Below, one piece after another: positions 46,857-55,344 of a DNA stretch of 64,000 nt. The translations under genes were made by a program, and so were the position numbers. The notes under the pieces are model-generated. The model made no database searches. It had not been told where the DNA came from and saw only the letters and a program-made list of their open reading frames with translations. Numbering within the stretch: the first letter of the stretch is position 1; each line of letters starts with the position of its first letter. This stretch comes from Acidobacteriota bacterium (GTDB taxonomy: Bacteria; Acidobacteriota; Terriglobia; Terriglobales; Acidobacteriaceae): assembly GCA_019351975.1 (NCBI GenBank), contig JABBOG010000006.1:29679-93678 (forward strand). Reading direction: 5' to 3'.

Positions 46857-48863
46857 CTATTGATGTCCGAAGAGATCGTTTTCGGTACGCAACTTCGGAA
46901 ACCACGTTAACTGAAATGCCATTGTTGTATCGAAGTTCGCGTCATTGTTTGGGTTATCGATGTAGATGGGTGCCTTCCAACGTTCAACTTGTATCCATGC
47001 GTCTAGTTGGACGTCTCTGCCCAGCCGCTTCAGGACATCGAACTTGTACTGGTTTTGAGAGGTTCCACCGGGAATGAAATCGGCTGGAGTGCGCTTTTTC
47101 ATGTACTCCATCTGGATCCATTGATCAGCCGAGAGATGATACGTGAGCCATGCCTGTCCTCCCATGGCCTCCCGTCCAATCCAATCTCCCATGATGAAAC
47201 CCTTATTGGTGTAACCCTGGCGTTGAACGACTTCCCAATATTCACCTGAACCATTTTCGCAAATGGTCGTTGAGCAGTCTGTGCTCACACCTTCGACTCG
47301 GAAATCGAGTTTGGGGATGCGGGGGACTTGGGAGAGATAAATGCCCGGACGGTAACCGGCACGCCTCGGAGCACTGACAGGAGAGACGTCGTCGTGAGAG
47401 ATGGAATCCGTGTACAGCGTAATATGATGGCTGACAAAAGGCAGACGCCAGGAAAAGTTGAAGGCACTGAAGCGTGCGCCGGGATCTTTAACGGAATATT
47501 TTTCCGGCCCCGTTGTGTCACTGATGGAAAAGAAACTGCGCAGAAATGTGCCGATCGTGATTGGCTCGTCGCACGGGGTTACGACGCCGTTCGGTTGCAG
47601 GCACCCGTGTCCGTGGCCGCCCCAGATAACGGAGCGCTCGAAGCCAAACTGAAAATTTGAAGTAGGAGCGAAGCTGAACATTTCAGAGTGAACCCACGGT
47701 TCGTTAGGATAGGCGTGGCCTTTTAGCGATCCAACGAAGAAGTCATAGCGAAGTGGGCCGAGCAGATCGGACAACAGTGGAACGTGTAACGGCTCGACGC
47801 GGTTGATCCTGAAGGAGTAGATATTTTCCGCGTTATTGCTCCAAGCCATTGCGCTGCCTAAGCCGGGGCCTTCCCACGCATCTGATTTTCCACCCGAGAT
47901 CTCGTTGCCAAGCAGATAGAAAGAGAGATTCGCCTCCATGAGGCGGAATGGATTCTGAGCCGCGATGGGGCCAGCGGGTATGGTCGATTGATTTGGCCCT
48001 TGATAGTTTATCTCGTCGATTTCAGACAGAGTCTCGGCGAGCCCATTAGGTGCCAGAGGGTTGCCTGTTCCAACAGTAGAGTAGCCAAACGATGAAGGGG
48101 AGTGCTGGTACTCGCCGCGCAGGTAGAGTGAAAACCGGCCGTACTCGTTGACCGTTGCGAAACCGGTGATATTGTTGAATCCTTGCTCGTAAGGTCTCCC
48201 GTAGTCCTCTGCAATAGTTTGACCGAGATGAAAGCTATCGCGCAGGGTTTGTCCGGTTATACCCATGGCACGCGTGTACACGGCTTGAGCGCCGTACACA
48301 AGGCCTCTGTCAAAGTATGTTGAAGCGGTCGCTGTCTCTCCACCTTCAGATGATAAGTAGGCGTCCAGCTTAGCAAGGATGTCGACAGCCTCGGTATTGT
48401 TGCTGGCTATAATCGCTGGCGACGACTCTTGCAGCATGTGCAGCAAGCTGCGGCGTGTCCACGGTCGCATATTGATGAAGGCGGTGTTCAGGTAGCCCAT
48501 GGAATAGAGGCGAAGCGCCATTGGGTAGATGTAACTATCTACCGGAATGTACGTTGATCCAAGATTTTCCTGTCTCTCGGTCTCCGTTTCTGGGGCGTAA
48601 CCAGGTACTGCTGGACGGCTGCTGTCGGGAACGGGTGTTGCCGCTGGCACTGCAGTGCGCTGAGGAGTCGTATTGGATGGTGTCGCCGCAGGGACGGATG
48701 GAGTGTAGAAGTCTGGAACCTGCGTCGCTGCGGGGATTGCGGGCTGGGCAGGAGTTGTCGTGGTTTGTGTCTGCGCAAGGCCAGCCTGCATCGAAACTAC
48801 GAACAGAACTGCGGCAGCGAAATGGGCCCGGGCGAATCGCCCATGGGATCTGGGAAAGAGCAT
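46857..48863 (-). CDS. Wzi-type capsule assembly outer-membrane protein
   Basis: 668 aa with a signal peptide (FAAAVLFVVSMQAGLAQ). A Pro/Thr/Ala-rich linker with near-repeated PAATPVPD units (~35-90) precedes the conserved domain starting YIPVDSYIYPMALRLYSMGYL. The remainder is a barrel rich in aromatic strands (FGFERSVIWGGHGHG, AMAWSNNAENIYSFRINRVEPL) ending near QLTWFPKLR. The pattern fits the capsule assembly protein Wzi family, which holds polysaccharide at the cell surface. It sits at the far side of the block from the glycosyltransferases, convergent with the uxs gene. Confidence 0.8.
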   Translation of the reverse strand: MLFPRSHGRFARAHFAAAVLFVVSMQAGLAQTQTTTTPAQPAIPAATQVPDFYTPSVPAATPSNTTPQRTAVPAATPVPDSSRPAVPGYAPETETERQENLGSTYIPVDSYIYPMALRLYSMGYLNTAFINMRPWTRRSLLHMLQESSPAIIASNNTEAVDILAKLDAYLSSEGGETATASTYFDRGLVYGAQAVYTRAMGITGQTLRDSFHLGQTIAEDYGRPYEQGFNNITGFATVNEYGRFSLYLRGEYQHSPSSFGYSTVGTGNPLAPNGLAETLSEIDEINYQGPNQSTIPAGPIAAQNPFRLMEANLSFYLLGNEISGGKSDAWEGPGLGSAMAWSNNAENIYSFRINRVEPLHVPLLSDLLGPLRYDFFVGSLKGHAYPNEPWVHSEMFSFAPTSNFQFGFERSVIWGGHGHGCLQPNGVVTPCDEPITIGTFLRSFFSISDTTGPEKYSVKDPGARFSAFNFSWRLPFVSHHITLYTDSISHDDVSPVSAPRRAGYRPGIYLSQVPRIPKLDFRVEGVSTDCSTTICENGSGEYWEVVQRQGYTNKGFIMGDWIGREAMGGQAWLTYHLSADQWIQMEYMKKRTPADFIPGGTSQNQYKFDVLKRLGRDVQLDAWIQVERWKAPIYIDNPNNDANFDTTMAFQLTWFPKLRTENDLFGHQ

Positions 48864-48946
48864 GCTACGAGTGTACCGGGAAGTGAACCTCTTTAATCGC
48901 TATACATCGAATTTCAGACGCTACGATGGCACAAAGAGCGCTGATT

Positions 48947-49774
48947 TCACAAGCGAATATTACGTGCAGCCATGTATTTTTCCATCCGGGCCAAAGGTGA
49001 ATCCGCTTGCGTAGGCCGCGCTGTTTGCATTGTCAAAGCCGCCCAAAGAACAGCTGGACCGCCTCCGTGGCGGGCTCGCAGCGTACACTCCTGCATCACA
49101 CGGTAGACTGCCACAGCATCTTCGCCGTCAACGGTCAGCACCGGAAGTTTAAGCCGCTTGGCAAGCCGACTCATGGCTGTGAAGTCGAGCAAGTATTGTG
49201 AAGGTCTGCCAGGGTGCGCGTGCACGCCGCCGGTTGCATCACTACAGGCGAGGATGAGGGGAAGACATTCCTGCTGGGCCCATTCGATAGATTCCTTCCA
49301 ATAGGATTCCGGACTGCCCGCACGTACGAAAGCTACAACGAATCGGTCGACATGAGCCGCTTGCATTCCGCGCGCGGCAGCTGTGCAAAGGGGTAATCTG
49401 CCTGCAAATCTTGCAGGAGATAACAACTTGCCTGTAAGGTTCGGAGTTCTTCCTTCTGGTGCGAGCTTCGTCGCAAGCGTGTCCTTTGGCGGTGCGCTCA
49501 GAAGATCGCCTGTGCCCAAGTGGATGGTCGTTCCAGCGAGAAATGCTTCTCGCGAAGCATGTGGCGAACGCAACTCATGTTCAAGGCGCTTGCAGTGAAG
49601 CATAAGAGTGTGCAAGTCACGCAGCGCATCGTGAGGAAGCAATGGGTTTTCCGGCGACGATCTGCCTTTGCGCAGCGGGCGATCAGATGCCGCTGCCCTA
49701 CCCGCTTCGGGCTGTCGAGTTATATCAGGCTGTCGCAGCGCCTGCACCTTCTGTCGATAAACCAAGCTCGACAA
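48947..49774 (-). CDS. Degenerate E1-alpha-like (ThDP-fold) protein, probably inactive
   Basis: 275 aa that aligns by eye with 2-oxoacid dehydrogenase E1-alpha subunits: an early LMLHCKRLEHEL stretch, LPLCTAAARGMQAAH, then FVVAFVRAGSPESYWKESIE where E1-alpha has the GDGAxxEG ThDP/Mg site, and ILACSDATGG where it has ENNGY. The VDGEDAVAVY and RHGGGPAVLWA segments and the LARMEKYMAARN ending also match. Thus the fold seems kept but the ThDP motif is lost. The open frame starts 50 nt inside the 3' end of aceE, so it is co-translated. A structural or regulatory partner of AceE is a guess. Confidence 0.68.
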   Translation of the reverse strand: MSSLVYRQKVQALRQPDITRQPEAGRAAASDRPLRKGRSSPENPLLPHDALRDLHTLMLHCKRLEHELRSPHASREAFLAGTTIHLGTGDLLSAPPKDTLATKLAPEGRTPNLTGKLLSPARFAGRLPLCTAAARGMQAAHVDRFVVAFVRAGSPESYWKESIEWAQQECLPLILACSDATGGVHAHPGRPSQYLLDFTAMSRLAKRLKLPVLTVDGEDAVAVYRVMQECTLRARHGGGPAVLWAALTMQTARPTQADSPLARMEKYMAARNIRL

Positions 49775-52430
49775 ACGCCTTTTCGGCGACTTTCGCTTTT
49801 ACAACACCTTCGCGCGCCAGCTTCGAGAGTGTTGCTGCAACGATAGATTCCGCGTCAACCTCGAAGTGTCGTCGCAAATGTTCGCGATTGTCTGAACGGC
49901 CAAAGCCGTCCGTTCCCAGAGATACCAAACGCGAACCGAGCCACGGAGAGAGAGAATCTGGTAGTGATTTCATGTAGTCGGTGGCAGCGATGATCGGTCC
50001 GGAAGTAGATCCGACGGCTTCAACGATGAATGGTAAGCGCTCTTTTGCCGCCGGATGGAGACGGTTCCAACGCTCGGCGTCAAGGCAGTCGCGGCGTAAC
50101 TCGTTGTAGCTCGTTATGCTCCAAACGTCAGCTGAAATATTGTATTTCTCAGCAAGTATCTGCTGCGCGCGGAGAACTTCATTCAGGATAGGGCCGCTGC
50201 CGAAGAGCTGAGCCTTTGCTCGTTCTTTGTCTGCTGCCTTCAGCTTGTAAGCACCCCGCAAGATACCTTCATGAATGCCTTCACCTTCAGGCATCGGAGG
50301 CATTGTGTAGTCTTCGTTATACATCGTTATGTAGTAGAAGTGGTCTTCGCCCGCTTCGTACATGCGACGGATTCCGTCCTGCACGATGACTGCAAGTTCA
50401 TAAACATACGCTGGATCGTAGGTGATGCATGTTGGTATAGTGCCGGAAAGCACAGGGGAGTGGCCATCCTGATGTTGCAGGCCTTCGCCTAGCATTGTTG
50501 TACGGCCGGCAGTGCCACCCATGAGGAAACCTTTGCCTCGGGAATCCGCGAAAGCCCAGGCCATGTCTCCGATGCGCTGAAATCCGAACATGGAGTAGTA
50601 CATGTAGAACGGCACCATGGGGATGCGATAATTTGAATAGGCCGTTCCAGCAGCGGTGAAGCTGGCCATGGAACCTGCTTCAGTGATGCCTTCTTCGAGG
50701 ATCTGACCACTTTTTTCCTCGCGGTAACTGAGGAGCATGTCGGAGTCGTGTGGCGTGTATTTCTGGCCTTCTGGGGCGTAGATGCCGACCTGCTTAATTG
50801 CGGACTCAAGGCCAAAGGTGCGGCCCTCGTCGGGCACGATAGGCACGATGAGTTTTCCGATGCGAGGATCTTTCATTAGGCCGCGCAGCATGGCTACGAA
50901 TCCCATTGTGGTCGAGACGGCGCGACCTCTAGAGCCTGCCAGCCACTCGTTGAAGAAATCCAAGGTAGGGGCAGTGAAATCTGACTTCGGAACCTGACGC
51001 ATCGGTAGGTAGCCGCCGAGCTGATGCCGCCGTGCCTGCATGTATTGGATTGCTGGATCGTTAGGCTCTGGGCGATAGAAGGCTGCTTCCTTGGCGGCGC
51101 CTTCAGGCAAAGGAATATCGAAGGTGCTGACGAACTCGGCCATGGACTCTTCGCTAAGCTTCTTTTCTGAGTGAGTCGCGTTGCGGGCTTGTGCAGATCC
51201 GAGGCCGTACCCCTTTACGGTCTTAGCGAGTATGACCGTGGGGCCGCCTTTGTGCTCCAGCGCGCGCTTGTAAGCGTTGTATATCTTTGCAGGATCATGA
51301 CCTCCACGATGCAGCCGGATCAACTCATCATCCGACTTGTCTTTAACGAGGTCGAGCAATTCGGGGTATTTGCCGAAGAAGTGTTCGCGGAGATAAGCAC
51401 CGCCTTTGGCCTTGTAGGCCTGAAAGTCCCCGTCCACGCACTCTTCCATCCGTTTCAGGAGCAAGCCTTGATGATCGCGCGCAAAGAGTTCGTCCCAGTC
51501 AGAACCCCAGATCACTTTGATAACGTTCCATCCAGCGCCATGGAACATGGCTTCCAGCTCATCAATAATCCGTTTGTTCCCGCGCACGGGTCCATCAAGA
51601 CGCTGCAAGTTGCAGTTCACAACAAAGATAAGGTTGTCGAGATGCTCACGTGCGCCGATTGAGATCGCACCGAGTGTGTCTACCTCGTCTGTTTCACCGT
51701 CCCCGACAAACGCCCAAATTTTCCGGTCGCTCTTTTCAATGAGTTCGCGATTTTCCAGATATTTCATGAACCGTGCCTGATAGATGGCATTCAATGGGCC
51801 GATGCCCATCGAGACAGTCGGAAACTGCCAAAAATCCTTCATCAACCAGGGATGCGGATAGCTGGATAGGCCTGGTTCATCGCGCAGTTCATGGCGGAAG
51901 TTCTTAAGACGGGATTCTTCGAAGCGGCCTTCAAGAAAGGCGCGGGAGTAGACGCCGGGTGAGGCATGGCCTTGAAAATAAATGAAGTCGCCGGGTTGAT
52001 CGCCTTTAGCACTGGGATAGTTGGCGCGGAAGAAGTGATTGAAACCAACTTCAAGAAGCGTCGCCAGCGAGGAGTAGGTAGAGATGTGACCACCGATTCC
52101 GGCGTCTTTCTTGTTCTGCCGGTGCACCATTGCCATTGCATTCCAGCGAATGAGAGCCTCCACACGACGCTCTAAATTGCGGTCGCCGGGGTAGGGAACT
52201 TCGTCGTGCTTCGGAATTGTATTGTGATATGGCGTGGTGATGTCGCCCGATGCGGTGACGCCTGCTTCTCTCGCGCGCGTTCGCAGCGCGGACAGCAAGG
52301 CCGCTCCCTGCTCCCAATCGTGCGCCACAACCTGGTCAAACGCTTCGATCCACTCTGCGACCTCGGCCGTCATGTCCTTCGTAATCGCGTCGTCTACCTG
52401 CATTGCCATCTGCCAAACCCTCCGGGCCAC
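49725..52430 (-). CDS. aceE: Pyruvate dehydrogenase E1 (homodimeric, AceE type)
   Basis: 901 aa. It decarboxylates pyruvate and passes acetyl to E2 in the cytoplasmic complex. The ThDP motif AFVGDGETDEVD...NCNLQRLDG is intact. Other signatures are FIYFQGHASPGVYSRAF, KTVKGYG and GRTTMLGEGLQHQDGHSP. The length matches E. coli AceE (887 aa). No E2 (aceF) or lipoamide dehydrogenase gene is in the window. The gene overlaps the E1-alpha-like gene at its 3' end, a combination I do not recognise from classic pdh operons. Confidence 0.95.
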   Translation of the reverse strand: MARRVWQMAMQVDDAITKDMTAEVAEWIEAFDQVVAHDWEQGAALLSALRTRAREAGVTASGDITTPYHNTIPKHDEVPYPGDRNLERRVEALIRWNAMAMVHRQNKKDAGIGGHISTYSSLATLLEVGFNHFFRANYPSAKGDQPGDFIYFQGHASPGVYSRAFLEGRFEESRLKNFRHELRDEPGLSSYPHPWLMKDFWQFPTVSMGIGPLNAIYQARFMKYLENRELIEKSDRKIWAFVGDGETDEVDTLGAISIGAREHLDNLIFVVNCNLQRLDGPVRGNKRIIDELEAMFHGAGWNVIKVIWGSDWDELFARDHQGLLLKRMEECVDGDFQAYKAKGGAYLREHFFGKYPELLDLVKDKSDDELIRLHRGGHDPAKIYNAYKRALEHKGGPTVILAKTVKGYGLGSAQARNATHSEKKLSEESMAEFVSTFDIPLPEGAAKEAAFYRPEPNDPAIQYMQARRHQLGGYLPMRQVPKSDFTAPTLDFFNEWLAGSRGRAVSTTMGFVAMLRGLMKDPRIGKLIVPIVPDEGRTFGLESAIKQVGIYAPEGQKYTPHDSDMLLSYREEKSGQILEEGITEAGSMASFTAAGTAYSNYRIPMVPFYMYYSMFGFQRIGDMAWAFADSRGKGFLMGGTAGRTTMLGEGLQHQDGHSPVLSGTIPTCITYDPAYVYELAVIVQDGIRRMYEAGEDHFYYITMYNEDYTMPPMPEGEGIHEGILRGAYKLKAADKERAKAQLFGSGPILNEVLRAQQILAEKYNISADVWSITSYNELRRDCLDAERWNRLHPAAKERLPFIVEAVGSTSGPIIAATDYMKSLPDSLSPWLGSRLVSLGTDGFGRSDNREHLRRHFEVDAESIVAATLSKLAREGVVKAKVAEKAFVELGLSTEGAGAATA

Positions 52431-52504: not shown

Positions 52505-55344
<2,840 letters not shown>

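Follow-up and report, generated by a model that had tools for sequence, protein, structure and literature searches.

An E1-alpha-like pseudoenzyme beside aceE in Acidobacteriaceae and its probable origin in a displaced pyruvate dehydrogenase

Why would a bacterium with a complete gene for homodimeric pyruvate dehydrogenase (PDH) keep, directly downstream of it, an E1-alpha-like protein that has lost its cofactor site? The question arises from a stretch of 64,000 nucleotides, hereafter the window, from a member of the Acidobacteriaceae. In this window the gene for a pseudo-E1-alpha (psi-E1a) follows aceE on the same strand. Once a non-orthologous enzyme has taken over a reaction, the subunits of the former enzyme should disappear. 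Here a dead subunit appears to have been kept although the motif was lost independently more than once, one and the same region of the molecule staying almost unchanged, and one carrier genome in three encodes it beside the replacing enzyme. The case makes a general question testable, namely which of the non-catalytic roles of a central metabolic enzyme are preserved by selection after the loss of catalysis. The answer we prefer, at a probability of roughly 0.6, is that psi-E1a descends from pdhA and outlived the displacement of the heterotetrameric E1 as a pseudoenzyme under selection, its role being non-catalytic and probably regulatory. The following features of the window are used below.

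46857..48863, minus strand: Wzi-family capsule assembly gene (wzi), downstream border of the ancestral argJ-pdhA-pdhB-wzi block
48947..49774, minus strand: psi-E1a ORF, 275 aa with a TTG start; the true start is probably further in
49055..49132, minus strand: conserved block VDGEDAVAVYRVMQECTLRARHGGGP, psi-E1a residues 215-240
49235..49243, minus strand: SDA, what is left of NN in the cofactor motif, psi-E1a residues 178-180
49316..49324, minus strand: RAG, remains of the GDG cofactor motif, psi-E1a residues 151-153
49640..49642, minus strand: in-frame TTG (NP[L]LP), a putative alternative start, for a protein of about 231 aa
49655..49657, minus strand: TCG codon, with TTG at the equivalent place in 17/17 other Granulicella-clade psi-E1a genes compared
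49725..52430, minus strand: aceE, complete, homodimeric pyruvate dehydrogenase E1 (TIGR00759, 1275 bits)
52505..53866, minus strand: argJ; many relatives that lack the aceE insertion have it immediately upstream of pdhA or psi-E1a

An E1-alpha homologue without its cofactor site

First, we confirmed that psi-E1a is a true homologue of E1-alpha with a predicted E1-alpha fold. The window protein clears the 22-bit cut-off of the Pfam model PF00676 (E1_dh) with a score of 24.7 (E 1.3e-5). All 35 members of an alignment of its relatives (A1) match the same model at E 0.01 or better (best E 3.8e-38), and a profile made from these 35 proteins reaches solved E1-alpha chains with E 5.7e-40. An AlphaFold model, computed from 56 related sequences of which 12 were canonical E1-alpha, has a mean pLDDT of 85.5 and a pTM of 0.81. 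Among solved structures, Foldseek ranks the E1-alpha chains of PDH and BCKDH as its best matches (E 1.8e-12), and a VIA comparison with 1w88_G gives Z 20.7 at 2.8 A over 209 residues. The original prediction that the protein keeps the E1-alpha plan could have failed here for want of a structural match; this outcome did not appear.

The active site is a different matter. As the same prediction had read from the letters, the Mg-ThDP motif GDG...NN has become RAG (151-153)...SDA (178-180), and we found that the His-Ser loop of canonical E1-alpha (columns H266/S267) is deleted as well. The loss is general among relatives: in 93 degenerate rows of the alignment the cofactor residues persist at G167 in 23%, G169 in 20%, N196 in 6% and N197 in 11%, and the loop residues at H266 in 5% and S267 in 3%. 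Psi-E1a thus resembles the PDH E1 subunit alpha (TIGR03181/TIGR03182, PF00676; 1w85/1w88, 1um9) in its predicted fold, in the order of its elements, in a VDGxD-helix-GxGP block and in descent at the same locus. It differs in that it is shorter, lacks both GDG...NN and the HGHS loop, has no E1-beta gene at the locus, and scores 29.5 bits in the window against the 411-bit cut-off of TIGR03181. Such genes match E1_dh models without having a cofactor site, and annotation should take note: if they were taken for PDH E1-alpha, the metabolism of acidobacteria would be misjudged. Among the matches listed from the open-licence PMC literature, we found no description of an E1-alpha pseudoenzyme.

We also considered whether a shift toward basic proteins (median pI 9.6 vs 7.1) might hint at nucleic-acid binding. 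In the core the two forms barely differ (9.21 vs 8.82), so we read the shift as largely due to the loss of an acidic C-terminal part and rejected the hint.

The gene had further been described as overlapping the end of aceE. The ORF as listed does so by 50 nt, but this overlap is not common to the Granulicella-clade relatives. In 17/17 other psi-E1a genes of this clade that we compared, a TTG stands three codons before 'NPLLP'. The corresponding window codon (49657-49655) reads TCG, and as a consequence the 275-aa ORF extends upstream to a TTG inside aceE. The listed start is therefore doubtful, and comparison with the relatives suggests that the overlap is probably a mis-called start; the in-frame TTG at 49642 is one candidate for the true start. 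The TCG itself may be a sequence error, reflect a genuine shift of the start, or mark a gene that is failing in this genome alone.

Distribution and selective constraint

We then asked how far such proteins are spread. Whole-genome profile searches of 200 genomes from the window's family (79 genera), covering matches down to about E 9e-35 so that weaker copies could be missed, returned 131 proteins of at least 139 bits, which the cofactor motif divided into 94 degenerate and 37 canonical proteins. Both forms together are widespread in the family. Psi-E1a occurs in at least 93 of the 200 genomes and at least 30 of the 79 genera; down to the same limit of about E 9e-35, no copy was found in 107 genomes. 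A search of 150 genomes gave 124 matching genomes, all from the window's own family, and the eight listed genomes from another family of the same order contained no match at E 1e-30. The window protein as a single query of genome contigs found no relative, and alignment A1 as the query gave the best 80 of 336 loci. Among the matches listed, degenerate loci include those of Granulicella, Edaphobacter, Bryocella, Silvibacterium, Paracidobacterium and unclassified Acidobacteriaceae. The A1 locus scan worked from the conserved-block pattern alone, which biases the named loci to proteins keeping this block; the genome counts rest on the whole-genome profile search for this reason. One genome (G171) holds two psi-E1a copies (L283, L299) on two contigs, 94% identical over 192 residues, which may reflect duplication or assembly redundancy.

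Is this family of genes anything more than a slowly eroding, functionless relic? Across 17 disjoint pairs, omega of psi-E1a has a median of 0.27 (range 0.05-0.52); it stays below 0.5 in 16 of them and falls to 0.05-0.14 in three. Canonical copies have a median of 0.07 (12 pairs). Judged from these substitution patterns, psi-E1a is under purifying selection that appears more relaxed than that on the enzyme but clearly constrains the protein. The random decay that would speak against the original prediction did not appear. Open frames are also seen at deep divergence, although the collection of the 94 degenerate proteins admitted open frames by design. About 20 of the profile matches contain one or two stops; in the four that we compared (G000, G064, G130 and G031) the score of the open frame by itself differs from that of the match by no more than 4 bits, which places these stops at the ends.

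The constraint is specific and includes one almost invariant block, VDxxDxVAxYRVxxExxxRAR. In 93 degenerate rows D90, D219, R225 and E229 (window numbering) are conserved at 100%, V215 and R235 at 99% and D216 at 98%, values that are somewhat inflated because the search profile needs part of this block. In 32 canonical rows the equivalents of R225 and E229 reach only 72% and 91%. Residues held at 98-100% across 30 genera are not what a relic would leave. Fast evolution fits the relic reading better: identity to genus relatives in our first sample is 41-49% for psi-E1a and 79-86% for AceE, so that psi-E1a evolves much faster and its constraint is partial. The youngest degenerate pair (G062/G156) has an omega of 0.46, the pair G177/G191 one of 0.52, and the many genomes in which no copy was found include 18 with the window's type of AceE that have no canonical form either. 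On balance the relic reading is already disfavoured by the substitution patterns, and we regard it as very improbable.

The pdhA locus and the loss of pdhB

The neighbourhood of psi-E1a points to where it comes from. In two genomes (G183, G169) a canonical pdhA stands in an argJ-pdhA-pdhB-wzi block; in many others pdhB is missing and the order is argJ-psi-E1a-wzi. Canonical and degenerate states likewise both occur at a second site, where nadK and tlyA are the neighbours. Because the same flanks, argJ/wzi or nadK/tlyA, accompany both forms, we conclude that psi-E1a is the positional descendant of pdhA. The fate of the partner gene follows the motif: E1-beta lies directly downstream of 36 of the 37 canonical-motif proteins, the exception (G090) being a contig end, and was found in the locus of none of the 94 degenerate proteins.

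A genome-wide search of 25 genomes for E1-beta gave matches of 38-49% identity in psi-bearing genomes, mostly of a fused 2-oxoacid type, with weak ones below 30%. The best match to PdhB in the window's own genome is a fused 746-aa E1 at 46% identity. Separate E1-beta-sized frames at 43-47% identity occur in two psi-bearing genomes (two in G153, one in G122), and a 69% match in G162 lies beside that genome's own canonical copy.

One genus (g63) shows what we read, from gene content and motif, as steps of the transition to a pseudoenzyme. Canonical proteins occur without AceE in G138, G186 and G199, and with pdhB plus AceE in G114 and G172; in G062 and G156 AceE is present, the motif has decayed and no close pdhB was found. 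The motif reads GEGSTSLGFWHEALNFAG..QNN in G114 (L210), DEGPTSLGFWDEALNFAG..RNN in G062 (L214) and DEGPASLGFGDEALKFAG..RNN in G156 (L218). Against the PDH model, whose cut-off is 411 bits, the canonical PdhA of G114 reaches 307 bits, so that pyruvate is a putative substrate of the ancestor.

How often did this happen? With 63 rows and a mixture model, a tree that unites the degenerate proteins in one clade fails the AU test (p 0.029). The cofactor motif was thus lost at least twice, with the caution that degenerate sequences are long-branched and deep trees uncertain. The nadK/tlyA loci suggest a possible third origin of the degenerate state.

In seven genomes (G088, G097, G104, G129, G162, G015, G078) psi-E1a is accompanied by a second canonical pdhA-pdhB pair elsewhere. 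At these seven pairs (L253, L259, L264, L240, L237, L243, L234) argJ and tlyA were not found, and the copies cluster in the gene tree with a support of 92, perhaps as a result of horizontal transfer.

Relation to AceE and the pyruvate step

AceE is linked to psi-E1a as its neighbour and as the enzyme that likely does the reaction of its ancestor, but it is a non-orthologous single chain with its own active site, and psi-E1a is not an AceE fragment. The two genes adjoin in 30 of the 93 psi-bearing genomes, in 7 genera, one genome with an aceE fragment upstream at a contig edge (G182) being left out of the count. The arrangement takes four forms: argJ-aceE-psi-wzi, argJ-psi-aceE-wzi, (nadK tlyA)-aceE-psi and (nadK tlyA)-psi-aceE. 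Parsimony on a quick gene tree counts at least nine changes of adjacency. Where aceE lies elsewhere (20 loci), at most two loci share any one neighbour family. Taken together, the four layouts and these scattered loci indicate that aceE moves about, with the old pdhA locus the one place where it was seen repeatedly. The absence of conserved adjacency, which would have told against the original prediction, did not appear in this survey; the recurrence of aceE beside psi-E1a instead favours a link of psi-E1a to pyruvate oxidation, as far as gene order can tell.

In one explanation of this pattern psi-E1a would be an independent protein, or a mere passenger at the locus. The old PDH promoter may have drawn aceE to the locus repeatedly, adjacency then reflecting shared regulation and not interaction. 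The block is ancestral for pdhA-pdhB, and in argJ-psi-aceE-wzi aceE occupies the former place of pdhB, as such a history would have it. In the argJ-aceE-psi layout, however, psi-E1a is kept downstream after the insertion (7/7 genomes of genus g1 in the first sample, in all of which aceE adjoins psi-E1a), and selection on psi-E1a itself is not accounted for. A promoter/terminator scan that covered 48700-50000 found no promoter-like site in this interval; its one terminator-like site lies inside aceE and does not exceed what shuffles gave. We consider this explanation possible and not the more probable one.

The original prediction went further and proposed a new subunit of the PDH complex, that is, a stable non-catalytic protein that would bind AceE or the E2 core and tune or organise the complex. 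The part of this claim that stands is an inactive E1-alpha homologue kept beside aceE. Its descent from a PDH-type E1-alpha and the recurrent adjacency in four orders speak for a subunit, and so does its distribution over AceE types. AceE-A, the type of the window (at least 62% identity), occurs in 91 of the 200 genomes; AceE-B, the other type, in 63 (8 of them typed by default); 46 have no AceE. Psi-E1a is present in 71/91, 8/63 and 14/46 of these, raw counts that are not corrected for kinship. The phyletic dependence expected of a simple AceE subunit is, on the other hand, not seen. Fourteen genomes keep psi-E1a without detected AceE, of which nine are at least 94% complete (the near-complete ones include G083, G144 and G191 of genus g9). 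Conversely, 18/91 AceE-A genomes have neither psi-E1a nor a canonical PdhA of this lineage, and in 41 of the 71 AceE-A carriers adjacency was not seen, some of these loci being cut by contig ends. An obligatory AceE subunit is therefore not supported, and a stable subunit of any kind seems to us doubtful.

We surmised that pyruvate:ferredoxin oxidoreductase (PFOR) might replace AceE where it is missing. Seven of the 14 AceE-less genomes (G083, G102, G124, G144, G162, G191, G197) match PF01855 with over 250 bits in a frame 1,212-1,282 aa long, which was identified in G083, G144 and G102 as a single-chain PFOR (TIGR02176, 1751-1802 bits). In the other seven no NifJ-sized PF01855 frame was found. 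These include two complete genomes of genus g9 (G008, G177), in which psi-E1a is present and neither AceE nor a close PdhB was found. NifJ-type frames also occur in AceE genomes, for example G062 and G153. PFOR thus explains at most half of the AceE-less cases, and we rejected it as a general replacement. In Acidobacterium capsulatum, transcription of aceEF and por is mentioned in an excerpt of a published study; the psi-E1a gene is not mentioned in that excerpt (PMC11636273).

That psi-E1a persists with AceE-A, AceE-B or PFOR (G083, G144, G102) is what one expects if PdhA had an older function unrelated to pyruvate oxidation that was retained after catalysis became dispensable. The same expectation covers its persistence beside a second canonical PdhAB copy (G088, G097, G104, G129, G162) and the conservation of the same block after independent motif losses. 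There is a precedent in the surface moonlighting of PdhA that an excerpt on Mycoplasma gallisepticum reports (PMC6287819). Such inherited moonlighting leaves the repeated arrival of aceE beside psi-E1a unexplained, however, and offers no candidate partner or ligand. It is the main rival of our reading, though we think it rather unlikely.

The reading that we prefer, a selected pseudoenzyme left by a displaced heterotetrameric E1, may be drawn as the following sequence. The ancestor would have been pdhA, encoding the E1-alpha of a heterotetrameric 2-oxoacid dehydrogenase, probably of the pyruvate type, at the locus argJ-pdhA-pdhB-wzi. Another enzyme would then have taken over its reaction, homodimeric AceE in most genomes and perhaps PFOR in some, and pdhB would have been lost upon this takeover. 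PdhA would subsequently have lost its Mg-ThDP site and catalytic loop while the fold and one nearly invariant strand-helix block were kept. The resulting stand-alone protein presumably acts through binding, without catalysis. Its most likely role would be regulation or scaffolding of the pyruvate-to-acetyl-CoA step, and where aceE has become its neighbour the two would be expressed together. This step is the leading putative target of psi-E1a. That the putative partner is the PDH complex itself we put at about one in three. More tentative is the idea of a new class of regulatory pseudo-E1-alpha proteins: AceE would have displaced the alpha2-beta2 E1 across much of the family, and the dead alpha subunit would have been kept in independent lineages as a non-catalytic modulator of the AceE that replaced it, with aceE repeatedly drawn into the operon.

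A partial parallel exists in eukaryotic PDH, where the E3-binding protein (protein X) is a non-catalytic paralogue of E2 and a proven subunit of the complex. Both it and psi-E1a are paralogues that lost catalysis yet were retained around 2-oxoacid dehydrogenases; psi-E1a derives from E1, the E3-binding protein from E2.

The window's own genome (95% complete) encodes AceE and, in addition, no fewer than two E1_dh open frames (746 and 841 aa). For the catalytic domain of E2 acyltransferases (PF00198) only a single instance was found in it, in a 552-aa open frame outside the window at G000:C5:120864-121547. Several dehydrogenases of this genome may share one E2.
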